A stretch of 41,649 bases of DNA from an uncultured Nitratifractor sp. (GTDB taxonomy: Bacteria; Campylobacterota; Campylobacteria; Campylobacterales; Sulfurovaceae), in the NCBI GenBank assembly GCA_947311565.1, contig CAMZLH010000029.1, forward strand, positions 1 through 41,649, given 5' to 3'. This document shows, one piece after another, positions 16,625 through 24,256 of the stretch. Numbering within the stretch: the first letter of the stretch is position 1; each line of letters starts with the position of its first letter. The notes under the pieces were generated by a model. It did not search any database and had not been told where the DNA came from. It saw nothing but the letters and a program-made list of their open reading frames with translations. The position numbers and the translations under genes are program-made.

Positions 16625-17905
16625 ATGGGATTAAAGTATACATTATATAGTGCAGTTACAGCATCTATTTTGGTAACTGGTTGTGCTAATGTTAATAGTG
16701 TAGGGACTAAGGGAACAAATAATAGTTGGAACTCTTCTCAGAGGGAAGAGTTTATTAATATTTTAGAGCAAGATAAATACTCGTCTATGTGTAATTTGCA
16801 TGGTATCTATGCACAGTATAAAAAGACAAAAGATGACAATATATTAACTAAACTTCTTGTAAGTTATACAGAAAATCTTGCAAATAGCTGTATCGAAACA
16901 GAGAGCTTTAAATCTTCTATTAGCTCAAACTCTAATGCAAATTATGAGTTTTATAAAGAGTATGTAGGTAGTAGTGATATAGAGTCTAAAATTGGTAGTG
17001 GTGCTACTATCTCTTCTATACTTGAGCCATATGTACCATCTATGCCTCAATTTTATCCCTTAGTTCAAGCTTATGATAGTGCAGTATCTCCTGTTCAAAA
17101 ATATAAAATAAAACAGAATATCGAAAGAATTAAACTACTTAAACCAGATAATTGGAATACATATGTAATGGTTAACATTCCAGAGTATAAATTTAGACTT
17201 TTTGAAAATGGCCAAAACAATTTAGAGTTTAATGTAATTACTGGTCGTCCAACTTGGCCAACACCTGTATTTAGTAGTATGATGAAATATATTACAGTAC
17301 ACCCAACATGGAATGTACCAGATAATATTGCTAGAAAAGAGGAGATTAAAAGAATTATCAAAGATAAAAGCTATCTTAAAAGACATAATATGGTTGTTAA
17401 GAGAGATTATGGCTTAAATAGTCCTACTGTTAACCCCTCTACTATTAACTGGAAAGAGTATCTTAAGCCAGAGTGGGCACATAAAGCACTACCATATAAA
17501 ATTATAGAGCAATCTGGTTCTAGAAATGCTCTAGGTAGAGTTAAGTTTATGTTCCCTAATAGATATGCTGTATATATGCACGATACTAATAATAAAAAGT
17601 TATTTGGATATCAACAAAGAGCATTTAGCCATGGTTGTATGCGTTTAGAGAAGCCTTTAAAACTACTTGGGCATCTATCTACATTTTATACTAAAGAGAA
17701 GTTTGAAGAGGTAGGAGATATTCTTAAAGGTAAAAAGACCAAATATGTTAGTTTAGCTCAAAAAATACCTGTGCATGTTGTATACTTAACTGCCTATGTA
17801 GATAATGGCATGCTGCACTTCTATAGTGATATATATGGGTACGATAGAGCTACTAAACTTCGTATTCCAACTACTATGGTAGAAAGAGAGAGCATAGCAA
17901 AATAA
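16625..17905 (+). CDS. L,D-transpeptidase lipoprotein (YkuD domain, YcbB-like)
   Basis: A 426-residue lipoprotein: the N-terminus ends in the lipobox LVTGC (Cys20). The C-terminal YkuD domain has the catalytic pattern YMHDTNN ... SHGCMRL with nucleophile Cys338. These enzymes make 3-3 crosslinks in peptidoglycan or attach proteins to it. The block around residues 190-300 (PEYKFRLFENGQNNLEFNVI, RPTWPTPVFSSMM, then IKDKSYLKRHNMV) resembles the YcbB/LdtD catalytic region with its inserted lid. The N-terminal 150 residues are Ser/Asn-rich, without a clear peptidoglycan-binding repeat. AGGAGAGGA precedes the ATG. It overlaps the hydrolase gene by one base, and murF follows, which supports a cell-wall role. 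Confidence 0.9.
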   Translation: MGLKYTLYSAVTASILVTGCANVNSVGTKGTNNSWNSSQREEFINILEQDKYSSMCNLHGIYAQYKKTKDDNILTKLLVSYTENLANSCIETESFKSSISSNSNANYEFYKEYVGSSDIESKIGSGATISSILEPYVPSMPQFYPLVQAYDSAVSPVQKYKIKQNIERIKLLKPDNWNTYVMVNIPEYKFRLFENGQNNLEFNVITGRPTWPTPVFSSMMKYITVHPTWNVPDNIARKEEIKRIIKDKSYLKRHNMVVKRDYGLNSPTVNPSTINWKEYLKPEWAHKALPYKIIEQSGSRNALGRVKFMFPNRYAVYMHDTNNKKLFGYQQRAFSHGCMRLEKPLKLLGHLSTFYTKEKFEEVGDILKGKKTKYVSLAQKIPVHVVYLTAYVDNGMLHFYSDIYGYDRATKLRIPTTMVERESIAK

Positions 17906-18618
17906 TGGCAGTTAAAGAGGTTAAATATAGGGGTAATATATACCCAATTTCTTATACTATCAGTGGTAGTGGTAGTAGATACATACTATTTTTACATGGT
18001 TGGGGTAGTAATAAAGAGATTATGAGTAGCTCTTTTAGTAAATATTTAAGTAGTTTTAAACATATCTATATAGATATGCCAGGATTTGGTAATAGCACTA
18101 ATAGTAATTTTTTAACTACAAATGATTATAGTAATATTATTAAAATATTTTTAAAAGAGATAAAAGTAGAACCAACTGTTATAGCTGGTCACTCATTTGG
18201 TGGGAAAGTTGCAACTCTTATGAAGCCAATAAACTTAGTACTACTATCTAGTGCTGGTATTTTAGTGCCTAAGCCTTTTAAAGTTAAAGCTAAAATTGCA
18301 CTATTTAAACTTTTAAAGCCACTAGGTATTGCAAAACTTAGAAAACTTTTTGTAGCAGATGACGCAAAGCAGATGAGTAGTGGCATGTATGAGACATTTA
18401 AGTATGTAGTTAATGAAGAGTTTGAAGATAACTTTAAAGAGTACAGTGGCAAAGCACTTCTATTTTGGGGAAAAAGCGATACTGCAACACCTCTTTGGAC
18501 GGCTGAAAATATTAATAAGTATATTGTTAATTCAAAACTATATCCACTAAACGGAGACCACTTCTTTTTTATAAATCATTCTAAATTTATCTCTGAAATT
18601 ATAGAGAAAGAGTCATAA
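17905..18618 (+). CDS. Alpha/beta hydrolase
   Basis: A 237-residue alpha/beta hydrolase without a signal peptide. Seen: the oxyanion-hole motif FLHGWGSNK, the nucleophile elbow AGHSFGGKVA (Ser of GHSFG), an acidic residue after a strand (LFWGKSDTATP) and the catalytic His in NGDHFFF. The cap region is short. Small hydrolases of this type precede murF in other Campylobacterota as far as I recall, but the substrate is unknown. The gene starts in the stop codon of the transpeptidase (TAATGG) and ends 8 bp before murF. Confidence 0.85.
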   Translation: MAVKEVKYRGNIYPISYTISGSGSRYILFLHGWGSNKEIMSSSFSKYLSSFKHIYIDMPGFGNSTNSNFLTTNDYSNIIKIFLKEIKVEPTVIAGHSFGGKVATLMKPINLVLLSSAGILVPKPFKVKAKIALFKLLKPLGIAKLRKLFVADDAKQMSSGMYETFKYVVNEEFEDNFKEYSGKALLFWGKSDTATPLWTAENINKYIVNSKLYPLNGDHFFFINHSKFISEIIEKES

Positions 18619-18626
18619 GGAGCTTT

Positions 18627-20045
18627 ATGTATATAATAAATTTTTTAGTCTATTTTCTATTTGTATCAACACTTGGATACTACTTTATTACAACAGTGCA
18701 GTGGTATAGCTATAGGTTAAATAGGGTTATATTTCATCATACTAAACCACTATGGAATATATTCTATTTTTTAGTACCATTTGCTGCCTATGAATCTTTA
18801 AGTTTTGCTAGATTAAATATTTGGCAAGGTGGAGTTTTAGTTATATATCTTGTTGCTCTGTTTTTGTGGTATAAAAAGCTAGATAAGCCTTTAGTATTTA
18901 CTAGTAGGGTTAAGAGATTTTTAGCAGCTTTATCTATATATTCTTTAATATTATACTTCGCAACAGGTTTAACTTTGTTAATTGTACCTCTTCTTTTAGC
19001 TTGGATTACATCTTTAGTTGTAGAGAAGATGATGTTTAATAAATATAAAGATATGGCAGAAGAGAAGATAGAAAATGCTAAAGATTTAATAATCGTAGGT
19101 GTTACAGCTAGCTATGGTAAAACAAGTATGAAAAACTTTATTGCTGAGCTTTTAAGCAGTAGATACAATGTCTATGCAACGCCTAGATCTGTAAATACAC
19201 TTGGTGGCATTATAAAAGATGTAAATGAAGATTTACCACCAGATACTCAAGTTTATGTAGCCGAAATGGGGGCAAGAGAGAAGGGAGATATTTTAGATAT
19301 TACAAAACTTCTTAATCCTCAATTTTGTGTAGTAGGAACAGTTGGTCCAGCACATATAGAGTACTTTAAATCTTTAGAAAATATTAGAAATACCAAAATG
19401 GAGATAATTAAATCTAAAAGATTAGAGCATGCTTGGATTCATGTAAGTACAAATACTAAAACAACTAATCCTAAAATAGAACTATTTGGACATGATATTA
19501 AAGATATCAAAGCTACGCTCAGTGGTCTCTGTTTTTCGTTAGAAGATAGCTACTACTGTGCAAATATTTTAGGAGATTTTAATGCTATTAACATAGCAGC
19601 TTCAATTAAAATTGCTAAAGAGCTAGGCATAAAAGAAGAGGCTATTAAAAAATCTTTACAAAACTTAAAGCCTGTAGAGCATAGATTGCAAAAGATAGAA
19701 GCTGGTGGTAAGATTATTATAGATGATAGTTTTAATGGAAATATAGATGGTATGCTATCATCATTTGAACTTGCATCTACTTATAGTGGTAGAAAAGTAG
19801 TAATAACACCTGGTCTAGTAGAGGTTGATGATAAGCTAAATATAGATGTAGCAAAAAGAGCAAATGAAGTCTTTAACTTAGTTGTAGTTACAGGTGAATT
19901 AAACTACAATATATTTAAAGAGTATATAGATGAGAGTAAGCTAATGCATTTAAAAGATAAGAGCAATTTCGAAGGGTTTTTAGCTCAAAATACAAAGAGT
20001 GGTGATCTGATTTTATTTGCAAATGATGCACCAAGTTTTGTTTAG
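18627..20045 (+). CDS. murF: MurF-type Mur ligase with N-terminal membrane domain
   Basis: MurF adds D-Ala-D-Ala to UDP-MurNAc-tripeptide. The Mur ligase ATP site GVTASYGKTS is at residues 158-167, followed by TPRSVNTLGG, VAEMGARE, the central EHRLQKI and the C-terminal DDSFNGNIDGM. What is unusual is the first 130 residues: they hold four to five membrane helices instead of the soluble UMT-binding domain of E. coli MurF. I believe this arrangement is known in other Campylobacterota, but the consequence for substrate binding is not established. ddl, often nearby, is absent. AAGGAG lies before the ATG. The thioredoxin gene follows after 12 bp. Confidence 0.88.
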   Translation: MYIINFLVYFLFVSTLGYYFITTVQWYSYRLNRVIFHHTKPLWNIFYFLVPFAAYESLSFARLNIWQGGVLVIYLVALFLWYKKLDKPLVFTSRVKRFLAALSIYSLILYFATGLTLLIVPLLLAWITSLVVEKMMFNKYKDMAEEKIENAKDLIIVGVTASYGKTSMKNFIAELLSSRYNVYATPRSVNTLGGIIKDVNEDLPPDTQVYVAEMGAREKGDILDITKLLNPQFCVVGTVGPAHIEYFKSLENIRNTKMEIIKSKRLEHAWIHVSTNTKTTNPKIELFGHDIKDIKATLSGLCFSLEDSYYCANILGDFNAINIAASIKIAKELGIKEEAIKKSLQNLKPVEHRLQKIEAGGKIIIDDSFNGNIDGMLSSFELASTYSGRKVVITPGLVEVDDKLNIDVAKRANEVFNLVVVTGELNYNIFKEYIDESKLMHLKDKSNFEGFLAQNTKSGDLILFANDAPSFV

Positions 20046-20057
20046 TTAGGAGAAAAA

Positions 20058-20375
20058 ATGAGTATAGAAGAGATAAAAGAGTTAATAGATACTAAAGATG
20101 GGGTAATGCTATATTTTTGGGGCGATAACTGCAGTGTATGTGATGTATTAAAACCAAAAATATCTACTGCATTTAAAGAGAACTTTCCAAAGATAGAGCA
20201 ACTCTTTATAGATGCAAAAACAAACACAGATATAGCAGCTGCATTTAGTGTATTTTCAATTCCTACTACAATTGTCTATTTAGCAGGTAAAGAGTTTGCT
20301 AGAGAGGGTAGGGCAATGAGTGTTATAAGTTTAGTTGAGCAGATAAGACGCCCATATGAGATAATGAACTCTTAA
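20058..20375 (+). CDS. Thioredoxin-like protein
   Basis: A 105-residue single thioredoxin fold. The active site is CSVC (Cys25, Cys28) in YFWGDNCSVC, not the WCGPC of housekeeping thioredoxin. The cis-proline loop FSIPTTIVY and a GKEFAREGR segment complete the fold. There is no signal peptide, so it acts in the cytoplasm. AGGAGAAAA precedes the ATG. It is the last gene of the ruvA-murF run. The partner is unknown. Confidence 0.88.
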   Translation: MSIEEIKELIDTKDGVMLYFWGDNCSVCDVLKPKISTAFKENFPKIEQLFIDAKTNTDIAAAFSVFSIPTTIVYLAGKEFAREGRAMSVISLVEQIRRPYEIMNS

Positions 20376-20426: not shown

Positions 20427-20445
20427 ACCCTAAAAAGGATACTTG

Positions 20446-21504
20446 ATGGATAATGGCTATAGTGGCAACTGCTTTGGTAGATATTTAATTATAATTTTTG
20501 TACCTCTTCTATCTGTGCTATTTTTAGCACTGAATTATTTTGGAGTATTGAACTTTTTAAACCTTCATACTTACTCCTTTTATATACTATTAGTAATATT
20601 TTTTATATTTATACTCTTTGTTGGACATAATGCATATATAGCAGAGTGCAAAATAAGAAATCAATTTAATGTTACAAAAAATATTTTAGAGAAGAGTTTA
20701 GAAAATAGCTCTCTTGTAATAGATGGTAAGAGTAAGTCTGTACTAAGTGTTAGAGATTTTTTGGATGATTATTTTAAAAATATACGAAATGATAACTTTG
20801 CAAAAGTTGCTTCTAGTGTATTTCCTATGCTTGGTATTTTAGGTACATTTATAGCTATAGCCATATCTATGCCAAACTTTACAGTAGATAGCTCTCTACA
20901 ATTAGATGGTGAAATTAGTAAACTACTATCTGGTGTAGGTACTGCATTTTATGCTTCTATATTTGGTATATATCTATCTTTATGGTGGACATTTTTTGAA
21001 AGAATAGGTTTATCTAAAATAGAGATATATACTAACTCTTTAGAGGACATTTACTTTAAAGATATTTGGTCAAAAAGAGAACTTTTAAAGTTTAAGTATA
21101 ATCAAAAAGCGATAATGGATAATGAGTTACTTAGAGTTTTAAGAGAGACATTTAATTTAGATTTTATAAAAAGTATAAATAGAGAACATCTAAAGAGTTA
21201 CGAAGAGATATTAGAGAAATCATATATTGGATTACGAGAGATAGAGACTACACTAGTTAATCAAGCTAATGGATTAGAAAGAGTAGCAAAAGAGCTTAAA
21301 CAGAGTAATGAGAGTATAGAGGCTAAAATAAACTTAGAGAAAAATATATTAGAATTTAATAAGAGTGCTAAAGAGTTAAATCTTCTATTAGAGCACTTTG
21401 ATAATGGATTAGATGGTGCATTAAGTAGAGTAGATAGTGAATTAGCTAAAGCTGTTAATAGTATTGAGAGTATGGTTATTAGCGTTAAAAGTATAAAAGA
21501 GTAG
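20446..21504 (+). CDS. MotA/TolQ/ExbB-family proton channel subunit, ZorA-like
   Basis: An inner-membrane stator-type protein of 352 residues from the ATG at 20446; a TTG three bases earlier is also possible. Two N-terminal helices (about 11-31 and 43-62) precede a cytoplasmic stretch, then the two pore helices. The first contains FPMLGILGTFIAIAISMP and the second GTAFYASIFGIYLSLWW, the MotA/ExbB core. After residue about 185 the rest is a charged, predicted coiled-coil tail. Four helices with a long tail are the ZorA arrangement rather than ExbB/TolQ, which lack the tail, or MotA, which carries its large loop between helices 2 and 3. Its tail is shorter than the ZorA proteins I know of. The MotB-like gene follows 3 bp later. 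Confidence 0.8.
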   Translation: MDNGYSGNCFGRYLIIIFVPLLSVLFLALNYFGVLNFLNLHTYSFYILLVIFFIFILFVGHNAYIAECKIRNQFNVTKNILEKSLENSSLVIDGKSKSVLSVRDFLDDYFKNIRNDNFAKVASSVFPMLGILGTFIAIAISMPNFTVDSSLQLDGEISKLLSGVGTAFYASIFGIYLSLWWTFFERIGLSKIEIYTNSLEDIYFKDIWSKRELLKFKYNQKAIMDNELLRVLRETFNLDFIKSINREHLKSYEEILEKSYIGLREIETTLVNQANGLERVAKELKQSNESIEAKINLEKNILEFNKSAKELNLLLEHFDNGLDGALSRVDSELAKAVNSIESMVISVKSIKE

Positions 21505-21507
21505 TGT

Positions 21508-22689
21508 GTGTTTAAAAATAACAAGAGCAATATAGAGAGTAATTTCTGGATATCATATGCAGATTTAATGGCAGGCTTACTATTTGTATTTATTTTAGTT
21601 ATTGGTGCTATAGTCTCTAAATCTATCCTATTAAGAGAAGATTTAGAGATAAAAAAGAGTAAACTTATAAAAGCAGAAAAGAGTCTAAAGTTTAAAGAGT
21701 CTAATTTAAAAGAGTTGGCACTTAAAGTTAAAAGTAAAGATAGTAAAATTATTAAACAGACTAATAATATTAAGTTACAATTTGATCAAATTGTTAAATT
21801 AAAAGAGTTATTGTTAAAAAGAGACAAAGAGATAGACGAAACAAAAAAAACTTTAACTATCACATCAAACTCTTTAAAGCTAAAGAGTGAAGAGTTAAAA
21901 AATTTAAATCAATTACTACTTGTTAAAAATACATCTATAGATAAGCTAAATGGCAAGGTAGTTATACTGCAAAACCTATTAGATGATAGTAATAAGACAA
22001 AAAATGAGTTAAAAGATTATAAAGATAGAGTTTTAATTTTATCTAAAGAGTTAACTCAAAAAGATAGTGAGTTAAATATAACTAGCAATAAAATGTTAAA
22101 ACTACTAGAGGCGCTTGATAGTAAACAGAGTAGATATGAGAGCATGTTGAATGAGCTTCAAAAAAAGAGGGAGAGAATAAAGTTCTTAACAGGTATTAGA
22201 TTAAGAGTTATAGCGGATCTTAAAAAGAGTTTAGGTAGCAGTATAAATGTAACCAAAGATGGCTCTTTAAAGCTTAGCTCTTCAGTACTTTTTGATAAAG
22301 GTAGTAGTAGTCTAAAAGATAGTGCAAAATTATCTCTTAAATTAGATTTTACTAAATATATTAAAACTTTAATGAGTAACTTCTCTATCAAAGATAATAT
22401 TGATACAGTAGTTATTGAGGGGCATACTGATAGTGATGGTGGCTATATGTATAACTTAAAGCTATCTCAAGATAGAGCACTAGAGGTTATGAACTATCTT
22501 TTAACACTAGATATATCTAAAAACTATAATCTACAAAAACTATTAACTGCTAGTGGTAGATCATATAATGATAGAGTAGTTTTAAGTGGGGAAGAGGATA
22601 AAGATGCCTCAAGAAGAATAGAGATTAAATTTAGATTGAAAAATCAAAATGCATTTTATGAGATAGAGAAGATACTAGATGAAGATTGA
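21508..22689 (+). CDS. MotB/OmpA-family stator partner with long coiled coil, ZorB-like
   Basis: A 393-residue protein with one N-terminal membrane helix, FWISYADLMAGLLFVFILV. Asp19 in SYADLM is at the proton-carrying position of MotB/ZorB. A long coiled coil runs from about 45 to 230, followed by an OmpA-like peptidoglycan-binding domain (about 245-385) with VLFDKGSSSLKDSA, IEGHTDSDGG, LSQDRALEVMNYL and DASRRIEIKF, so the wall-binding Asp and Arg are present. The start is GTG 21508, 3 bp after the channel gene; a later start would lose the conserved helix. The pair would form a proton-driven, wall-anchored motor. No flagellar gene is near. The long coiled coil is unusual for MotB and ZorB. 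Confidence 0.82.
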   Translation: MFKNNKSNIESNFWISYADLMAGLLFVFILVIGAIVSKSILLREDLEIKKSKLIKAEKSLKFKESNLKELALKVKSKDSKIIKQTNNIKLQFDQIVKLKELLLKRDKEIDETKKTLTITSNSLKLKSEELKNLNQLLLVKNTSIDKLNGKVVILQNLLDDSNKTKNELKDYKDRVLILSKELTQKDSELNITSNKMLKLLEALDSKQSRYESMLNELQKKRERIKFLTGIRLRVIADLKKSLGSSINVTKDGSLKLSSSVLFDKGSSSLKDSAKLSLKLDFTKYIKTLMSNFSIKDNIDTVVIEGHTDSDGGYMYNLKLSQDRALEVMNYLLTLDISKNYNLQKLLTASGRSYNDRVVLSGEEDKDASRRIEIKFRLKNQNAFYEIEKILDED

Positions 22690-22813
22690 TAATTTTAAAC
22701 CAAGTAATCTAGAGAGAACTAATAGGTTTCTAAAGCTAAGATCTGATGTTTTATATAGTAGATTGAGTAGATTTTCTAAAATAAAAGTGTGGATTAAATC
22801 TCTTTTTAAATAA
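22679..22813 (+). CDS. 44-residue basic ORF overlapping the MotB-like gene
   Basis: An ATG 11 bp inside the end of the MotB/OmpA-like gene opens a 44-codon frame (starts MKIDNFKPSNLERTNRF, ends VWIKSLFK). The product is strongly basic (many Arg and Lys, two acidic residues in the first 15), has no membrane helix, and would be translationally coupled; GAGAAG precedes the ATG. It matches no family I recognise. Codon use resembles the neighbours and the overlap is typical of operons in this window. It may be a small cytoplasmic partner of the motor, or a chance frame in an otherwise empty 154-bp gap before selO. Confidence 0.42.
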   Translation: MKIDNFKPSNLERTNRFLKLRSDVLYSRLSRFSKIKVWIKSLFK

Positions 22814-22843: not shown

Positions 22844-24256
22844 ATGAATATAAAAGTTACTAATCCATATTTAAAATTATCAGAAGAGTTTTATAATTTA
22901 GAGACTACACAGCCACTAAAAAATGCTTACTTAATAGATCTTAATCTAGAGTTATCAGAAGAGATCGGGTTAAACTCTTTAAGTGATAGTGATTTTTTAA
23001 AGCTTACAAATGGTGAGTTTTTATTAGATGGTGCAAAACCTTTTGCATCTGTATATGCTGGTCATCAATTTGGTCATTTTGTGCCGCAACTTGGAGATGG
23101 CAGAGCTATAAATATTGGTACAATAGATGGATGGCACTTGCAACTTAAAGGTAGTGGTATTACTAAATACTCTAGAGATGGAGATGGTAGAGCAGTATTA
23201 AGAAGCTCTATTAGAGAGTATTTAGTAAGTGAAGCTATGCATGGGCTTGGTATAGATACAACAAGAGCTATATCTATTGTTGGTTCTAAACATAGAGTCT
23301 ATAGAGGAGAGTGGGAGAGTGGTGCAGTCGTACTTAGAGCCTCTAAAAGTTGGATAAGAGTTGGTACTTTTGAATATTTTTATCATAAAGGTATGTATAA
23401 AGAGTTAGCTAAATTAATAGAGTATACAATTTTAGAGAGCTATTCTCATTTATCAAATAGAGAAGATAAAATTGCTCTTTTTTTCCAAGAGTTAGTTGCG
23501 AAGAGTGCAATGCTAGTAGCATCTTGGCAGGCAGTTGGTTTTAACCATGGAGTACTAAATACAGACAACTTCTCTATAGCTGGTCTAAGTATAGATTATG
23601 GACCATTTGCTTTCTTTGATGATTATAATAGAAATTACATATGTAATTATACAGATAGAGGTGGTAGATACTCATTTAAAAACCAGCCAAATATATTTAA
23701 ATGGAACTTAAGTGCTCTAGCATTAACATTAAGTAAATTTGTAGATATATCTATACTAAAAGAGATTATAGAAGAGTTTGATACTATATATTTAGATAGA
23801 TATTTAGATCTTATCTCTAAAAAATTAGGCTTAGAGCATCGAGAGAAAGATGATTACAGTTTAATAGAAGAGCTACTTTCACTAATGGAGACTCTAGAGA
23901 TAGATTATACACTTTTTTTTCGTACACTTAGTTATTACAATAAAGATCAAGAACCTCTCTTAAAATTAGCTTTATACCATAACCCACTAAAAGATTGGTT
24001 AAATAGGTATAGTAAAAGATTAGAGTTAAATAGTAGAGATACAAAGAGTGATATGTTGCAAATTAATCCAAAATATGTATTAAAAAACTATATGCTACAA
24101 GATGCTATTGATTTAGCACAAAGAGGTGATTTCTCTTTAGTAAAAGATTTATTAAAAATAGCAAAAAACCCATATATAGAGCATGAGAAATTAGATAGAT
24201 ATTCAAAATCAACACCTCAAGAGTATAAAAATAGAAAATTAAGTTGTTCATCTTAA
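22844..24256 (+). CDS. selO: Protein adenylyltransferase SelO (YdiU family)
   Basis: SelO is a pseudokinase that transfers AMP from ATP to Ser/Thr/Tyr of target proteins and is linked to redox stress. Seen: FASVYAGHQFGHFVPQLGDG (about residues 68-87), the ATP-site run LQLKGSGITKYSRDGDGRAV, RSSIREYLVSEAMH, then HGVLNTDNFSIAGLSIDYGP with the metal-binding Asn and Asp. The protein is 470 residues and ends KLSCSS; many SelO proteins have Cys near this end (in E. coli part of a regulatory disulfide). It lies 30 bp after the small ORF, with no obvious ribosome binding site, so it may be in the motor operon. Confidence 0.95.
   Translation: MNIKVTNPYLKLSEEFYNLETTQPLKNAYLIDLNLELSEEIGLNSLSDSDFLKLTNGEFLLDGAKPFASVYAGHQFGHFVPQLGDGRAINIGTIDGWHLQLKGSGITKYSRDGDGRAVLRSSIREYLVSEAMHGLGIDTTRAISIVGSKHRVYRGEWESGAVVLRASKSWIRVGTFEYFYHKGMYKELAKLIEYTILESYSHLSNREDKIALFFQELVAKSAMLVASWQAVGFNHGVLNTDNFSIAGLSIDYGPFAFFDDYNRNYICNYTDRGGRYSFKNQPNIFKWNLSALALTLSKFVDISILKEIIEEFDTIYLDRYLDLISKKLGLEHREKDDYSLIEELLSLMETLEIDYTLFFRTLSYYNKDQEPLLKLALYHNPLKDWLNRYSKRLELNSRDTKSDMLQINPKYVLKNYMLQDAIDLAQRGDFSLVKDLLKIAKNPYIEHEKLDRYSKSTPQEYKNRKLSCSS

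Follow-up and report, generated by a model that had tools for sequence, protein, structure and literature searches.

A ZorAB-like motor gene pair with a conserved small third gene in Nitratifractor and other Campylobacterota

Introduction

The window analysed here, a stretch of 41,649 nt from an uncultured Nitratifractor sp. (contig CAMZLH010000029.1), includes adjacent genes for a ZorA-like and a ZorB-like motor subunit, followed by a small ORF and selO, and it raises the question of what such a motor does at a locus with none of the Zorya effector genes. The four ORFs lie as described in the original prediction made from the sequence of the window, with the small ORF overlapping zorB by 11 bp and selO starting 30 bp further on (Table 1). 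That prediction left two options, a minimal motor with the small basic protein or SelO as its output, or a housekeeping stator of the Campylobacterota. The best explanation for the whole, to which we assign a probability of roughly 0.4, is a ZorAB-class housekeeping motor that is encoded in a three-gene operon, uses a small adapter and has its output at the cell wall. That the motor belongs to this class and that the small gene is real are, taken jointly, very nearly assured.

Table 1. Features of the window at and around the motor gene pair
Feature	Position	Strand	Description
L,D-transpeptidase, alpha/beta hydrolase, MurF-like Mur ligase, thioredoxin-like protein	16625..20375	+	Upstream neighbours
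ZorA-like motor subunit	20446..21504	+	352 aa from ATG at 20446 (alternative start, TTG at 20443); four membrane helices, cytoplasmic beta-hairpin, long C-terminal helix
ZorB-like subunit	21508..22689	+	393 aa from GTG at 21508; membrane helix with Asp19, helical stalk, OmpA-type peptidoglycan-binding domain (261–363)
Conserved third gene	22679..22813	+	44 residues; start codon inside zorB; FxPxxL motif; basic
selO	22844..24256	+	30 bp downstream of small ORF; Pfam SelO

Class of the motor

The ZorA-like protein contains a Pfam MotA_ExbB domain, and its AlphaFold2 model, built from an alignment of 30 sequences (mean pLDDT 76.5, pTM 0.54), consists of four membrane helices, a beta-hairpin at residues 89–98 and a single C-terminal helix of 114 residues (238–351). 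The hairpin strands (89–92 and 95–98) have a pLDDT of about 80 in this single prediction. A subunits of the Zorya type are described as the only ones whose cytoplasmic domain has a beta element (PMC12505986), and such an element is present in the predicted structure of the ZorA-like protein. Thr134 and Ser171, the ion-path residues that align with Thr147 and Ser184 of E. coli ZorA, are invariant or nearly so in relatives. In the ZorB-like protein, Asp19 sits within the sole N-terminal hydrophobic helix, the helical stalk is approximately 200 residues long, and the C-terminal domain matches Pfam OmpA with an E value of 1.8e-12. Both Asp19 and the wall-binding residues (EGHTDSDG...NLxLSQxRA), which had been picked out from the single sequence, proved to vary little or not at all in 30 relatives.

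Profile searches with ZorA and ZorB models gave PADLOC calls of ZorA (8e-14) and ZorB1 (2.7e-51), yet the NCBIfam Zorya models scored only 27–67 bits against cut-offs of 100–750. Among solved structures, the pair comes closest in sequence to Zorya ZorA and ZorB, and when the ZorA-like model was compared to the PDB using Foldseek the top seven matches were ZorA chains, four of them at E < 0.001, with ExbB and TolQ following at about 0.1. In the A-subunit tree, which like the B-subunit tree was built quickly and includes some long branches, the ZorA-type proteins split from MotA and TolQ/ExbB with a support of 86, and those of the window type form their own clade (support 92), apart from Klebsiella Zorya I, from sporadic ZorAB pairs accompanied by an HNH protein and from a long-tail type found in Helicobacter. 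In the B-subunit tree MotB is separate (100) and the proteins of the window type group together with weak support (61). By sequence and predicted fold, the pair is closer to ZorA and ZorB than to MotAB, TolQR or ExbBD, and the ZorA/ZorB-like architecture originally proposed is retained.

Gene neighbourhood and the cell wall

The block upstream of the pair in the window is kept in part of the window's genus. In one Sulfurovum-like genus the order mreB-mreC-zorA-zorB-small gene, all co-directional, was found in 24 of 24 loci, mostly with clpX first, and mreC overlaps zorA by 1–8 nt in ten of these; the MreB and MreC proteins score above the NCBIfam cut-offs. In most of the 15 loci from another genus, a convergent gene that on reading of its sequence by eye is MltG-like follows zorB. 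With the probe proteins used, no wall-synthesis neighbours of zorAB were detected in Sulfurimonas-like, Arcobacteraceae or Campylobacter loci, and each link to a cell-wall gene, all in Sulfurovaceae lineages, may represent a single event. A scan for promoters and terminators gave a signal no greater than chance. The cell-wall neighbours suggest a role for the motor at the wall rather than in defence, and we hold to such a role tentatively.

Separately, in 18 Sulfurovaceae loci (L052, L056 and others) a gene that lies one to three positions ahead of zorA encodes a protein of 394–452 aa, identified by eye only as VWA-domain/DUF2201-like.

The pair could instead be an envelope energiser resembling Tol-Pal or a sensor of wall stress, unrelated to MreBC, with the small protein acting as a stator plug or assembly factor. 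This we regard as unlikely, though it deserves serious consideration. The pair belongs to the same motor superfamily and includes a wall-binding B subunit, and the Sulfurimonas-like, Arcobacteraceae and Campylobacter loci, where the probes used showed no wall-synthesis neighbour, fit this reading. However, the mreBC operon present in every locus of one genus does not, and the window's genome encodes two other MotA_ExbB proteins of the size of TolQ/ExbB, so that Tol-Pal-like roles may already be filled.

Distribution and relationship to defence systems

Among the good genomes of the window's family, the Sulfurovaceae, ZorA was found in 77 of 88 and ZorB in 82 of 88 (a few of the latter are weak OmpA-domain matches), and ZorA is single-copy in nearly all carriers. 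A survey of the phylum found strong matches in several families. In another search, the best 80 of 457 matches, all or nearly all of them from Campylobacterota, include Sulfurovum, Nitratifractor, Sulfurimonas, Arcobacteraceae, Sulfurospirillum and Campylobacter. Judged from these matches, window-type zorAB is a core gene pair of the Campylobacterota, as the housekeeping option of the original prediction would have it.

In a Campylobacter genome a PPIase gene and then a class II aldolase gene precede zorA-zorB, an arrangement that we take to be Cj0596–Cj0599 of C. jejuni, zorAB then being Cj0598/Cj0599. The annotated function of Cj0598 is unknown (PMC5841378), and only passing mentions of Cj0598/Cj0599 were found in the literature.

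Variant arrangements were also seen. Locus L071 (7269–11359) has a tandem zorA-zorB-zorA-zorB, with the first zorB product just 199 aa long, and lacks the small gene. Proteins of approximately 660–675 aa in further Sulfurovaceae (G055:C3, G073:C1, G117:C46 and G093:C51) have a C-terminal part that resembles the OmpA portion of ZorB (E 1e-24 to 1e-34).

The pair might also be a core Zorya-like defence motor that senses phage damage to the wall and signals via the small protein or via effectors encoded elsewhere. Its nearest characterised relatives are indeed ZorA and ZorB of Zorya systems, whose action requires ion flow through ZorAB, wall binding and the tail (PMC11890865). We consider this improbable given the core, mostly single-copy distribution and the absence of an effector, in agreement with what was noted for the window: neither zorC/zorD nor zorE lies beside zorAB in any neighbourhood examined. 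Moreover, sporadic, Zorya II-like ZorAB pairs with an HNH protein exist separately in the phylum and fall in another clade, and at least one genome (G240) carries both this and the core type.

These sporadic pairs are followed by a gene for a protein of 271–283 aa at L229, L230 and L234 (genomes G240, G162 and G265, respectively), with an HNH domain in the protein at L229 and a weaker one at L234, and on their sequences the three loci are Zorya II-like. A second ZorAB type with A subunits of 644–1170 aa occurs at L228, L231, L232 and L235, from the Helicobacter-like genomes of family f2, and at the similar locus L233. In all of these five except L233, the long-tail zorA-zorB comes immediately after an ExbB-like/ExbD-like pair. 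The ZorA2 model matched at < 1e-20 in 38 of 298 phylum genomes, most of which belong to family f2. At L226 (3882–6796), the genes downstream of a further ZorAB pair encode two short proteins (137 and 132 aa) for which Pfam gave no match and then a dynamin-like GTPase of 526 aa, possibly an unusual effector set.

The small third gene

In nearly all Sulfurovaceae loci zorB is directly followed by a short ORF that carries F-x-P-x-x-L-x-x-A close to its start, and a small gene overlapping zorB is also present at Sulfurimonas-like, Arcobacteraceae and Helicobacteraceae-like loci. The 72 proteins collected range in size from 38 to 64 residues, about 50 being typical, and their C-terminal ends are rich in lysine and aromatics. 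Its start codon lies inside zorB, at an offset of -10 in 38 of the 57 cases measured. When a profile of 22 members was used to search 13,414 small ORFs (25–130 codons, from the loci analysed), matches with E < 0.3 were found directly downstream of zorB only. The gene was found in 40 of 40 further loci, in three of which the start of the ORF is shifted by an earlier in-frame start codon, and a control set of about 403 further genes from these loci showed no such motif-bearing ORF downstream (two apparent positives were zorB genes truncated at contig ends).

For pairs picked by ZorB identity, where synonymous sites are near saturation, pN/pS was < 1 in 24 of 24 (pooled 0.48), and it was 0.34 for pairs picked by small-protein identity, a selection that biases the value low. 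The small gene is, from these ratios, under purifying selection. A profile from which the window's genus had been left out ranked all nine members of that genus top among 1,014 ORFs, and it matched the ORF following zorB in Arcobacteraceae and Helicobacteraceae-like loci with E values from 5e-5 to about 1. The window copy was the weakest of the genus members (E 0.28 in the 1,014 ORFs, 0.052 in the window alone), and its pN/pS with its nearest neighbour is 0.87. Hence, the case for the window copy comes partly from its position and from close relatives, such as L042, where the small protein is MKIAHFKPSNLEKLNRHL, compared to MKIDNFKPSNLERTNRFL in the window.

The divergence of the window copy is what favours a chance ORF, or a leader that couples translation and has no function as a protein. 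Against this stand the recurrence of the gene in every further locus, the pN/pS values, the empty control and the homology across families detected by the profile, and we give such an origin very little credence. The 44-residue ORF is, on its conservation after zorB across families, a genuine and previously unnoticed gene, and the suggestion that it is a true partner of the pair is borne out.

The overlap may also have left a trace in ZorB. The invariant codon for Asp391 provides the AT of the overlapping ATG in the window (22676–22689) and in relatives, and Asp391 is absent in lineages without the small gene; its conservation may thus be a reflection of the start of the small gene. No small gene follows zorB in the Campylobacter and Sulfurospirillum loci, though the motor is kept, and the small protein is therefore not always needed. 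It is also missing from L070, L071 and L100, which are within groups that otherwise carry it. The possibility that the small protein is fused to the longer ZorA tail of Campylobacter was considered, and inspection by eye did not reveal the motif there. No copies unlinked to zorB were found at E < 0.01 in 17 genomes. Pfam gave nothing for the window copy and no match common to more than one of 62 members, and NCBIfam held no matching family; the Pfam and NCBIfam matches to single members (E 0.003–0.009) are probably due to chance.

The model of the small protein (pLDDT 85.5) has two helices (9–28 and 31–43). The last 16 residues are amphipathic, with a mean moment of 0.46 compared to 0.28 for shuffled sequences, and in 66 of the 72 members the moment exceeds the protein's own shuffled mean. 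The median net charge is +7, and neither a membrane helix nor a signal peptide is apparent from the sequences.

The other output first proposed, SelO (protein AMPylation), owed its place to a gene on the same strand just downstream, which does encode a full-length SelO (Pfam 3.8e-129), but it is hardly credible, as selO adjoins the pair in no relative and the single distant SelO match in 278 loci is not adjacent. On this survey of the homologues selO, whose linkage is private to the window's genome, probably lies outside the motor system. The original prediction thus keeps its small ORF, which stays linked to a pair that does not cluster with MotAB or TolQR, and loses selO. A flagellar stator or its relic, for which only the MotA/MotB-type domains speak, has next to no chance and on sequence is already refuted for the window's family, since among 150 family genomes only G007 gave a confident FliG_C match and G007 has no zorAB (some ten further FliG matches are marginal and lie within frames of ~900–1000 aa), and the genuine MotA and MotB proteins of the phylum branch in different clades.

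Proposed function

The solved ZorAB is a 5:2 complex (PMC11890865). By homology, five ZorA and two ZorB subunits would form an ion-driven rotor that ZorB anchors to peptidoglycan, and ion flow would rotate the ZorA ring together with its short cytoplasmic tail. As nuclease effectors are absent, the output of the motor must go elsewhere, and the small protein is the best candidate for the link because its gene overlaps zorB, it has no membrane helix or signal peptide and it is basic, with a helix of the membrane-surface type. From its conservation and sequence character, we propose that it is found on the cytoplasmic side, where the FxPxxLxxA segment would dock on ZorA and the basic, aromatic amphipathic helix would rest on the inner leaflet. 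It would then be an adapter or regulator that couples or restrains the ZorA tail. The neighbourhood leads us to propose further that the motor works for the growth or integrity of the cell wall, possibly together with MreBC, and not for anti-phage killing.

A bolder version, which is doubtful, is that a housekeeping ZorAB branch ancestral to the Campylobacterota works with the micropeptide and the MreBC elongation machinery, its rotation assisting or sensing peptidoglycan synthesis, and that Zorya is an offshoot or sister of this cell-wall motor.

The finding that the same architecture forms a core pair in the phylum, including Campylobacter, sets the ZorAB motor apart from phage defence, and matches to the ZorA and ZorB profiles of defence-finding tools in Campylobacterota need not imply Zorya defence. 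For the question of what a motor without a nuclease effector drives, the conserved small protein and the mreBC operon are concrete starting points.

Comparison with known systems

The top sequence and fold matches of the pair are the ZorA and ZorB proteins of type I and type II Zorya (PDB 8qyd, 8vvn and 8vvi). They share with it the ion-path Thr/Ser and Asp residues and the wall-binding OmpA domain, and the ZorA proteins also have in common the cytoplasmic beta element and the C-terminal helical tail. However, the window-type ZorA is much shorter (352–480 aa compared to 729 aa in type I), the ZorB stalk is longer, and the window type forms a separate clade that scores far under the equivalog cut-offs. 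It is core rather than sporadic, lacks ZorC, ZorD and ZorE and has the extra small gene. Assignment to the Zorya defence systems as a class was rejected on the missing effector, the scores and the core distribution.

Flagellar MotA/MotB belong to the same motor superfamily and have the same OmpA-type wall anchor, but lie in other clades, and FliG is nearly absent from the window's family. TolQ-TolR and ExbB-ExbD are likewise ion-driven inner-membrane motors of this superfamily, though in another clade and with a weaker fold match, and, unlike TolR and ExbD, the B subunit of the window carries an OmpA domain. No TolA or TonB gene lies beside the window pair, and this, the clustering and the OmpA-bearing B subunit led us to reject the TolQR/ExbBD class.

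The small protein resembles SwrD of B. subtilis, a small protein that boosts stator output (PMC9195833), by analogy only; no sequence match to it was found in the Pfam run on 62 members, where no match recurred in a second member. Cj0598/Cj0599 of C. jejuni belong to the same clade as the window pair by gene order and profile, differing from it in the longer ZorA tail, the absence of the small third gene and the flanking genes, peb4 and fba. Hence, the motor class is known, and what is new is a core, non-defence branch of it that bears a micropeptide.
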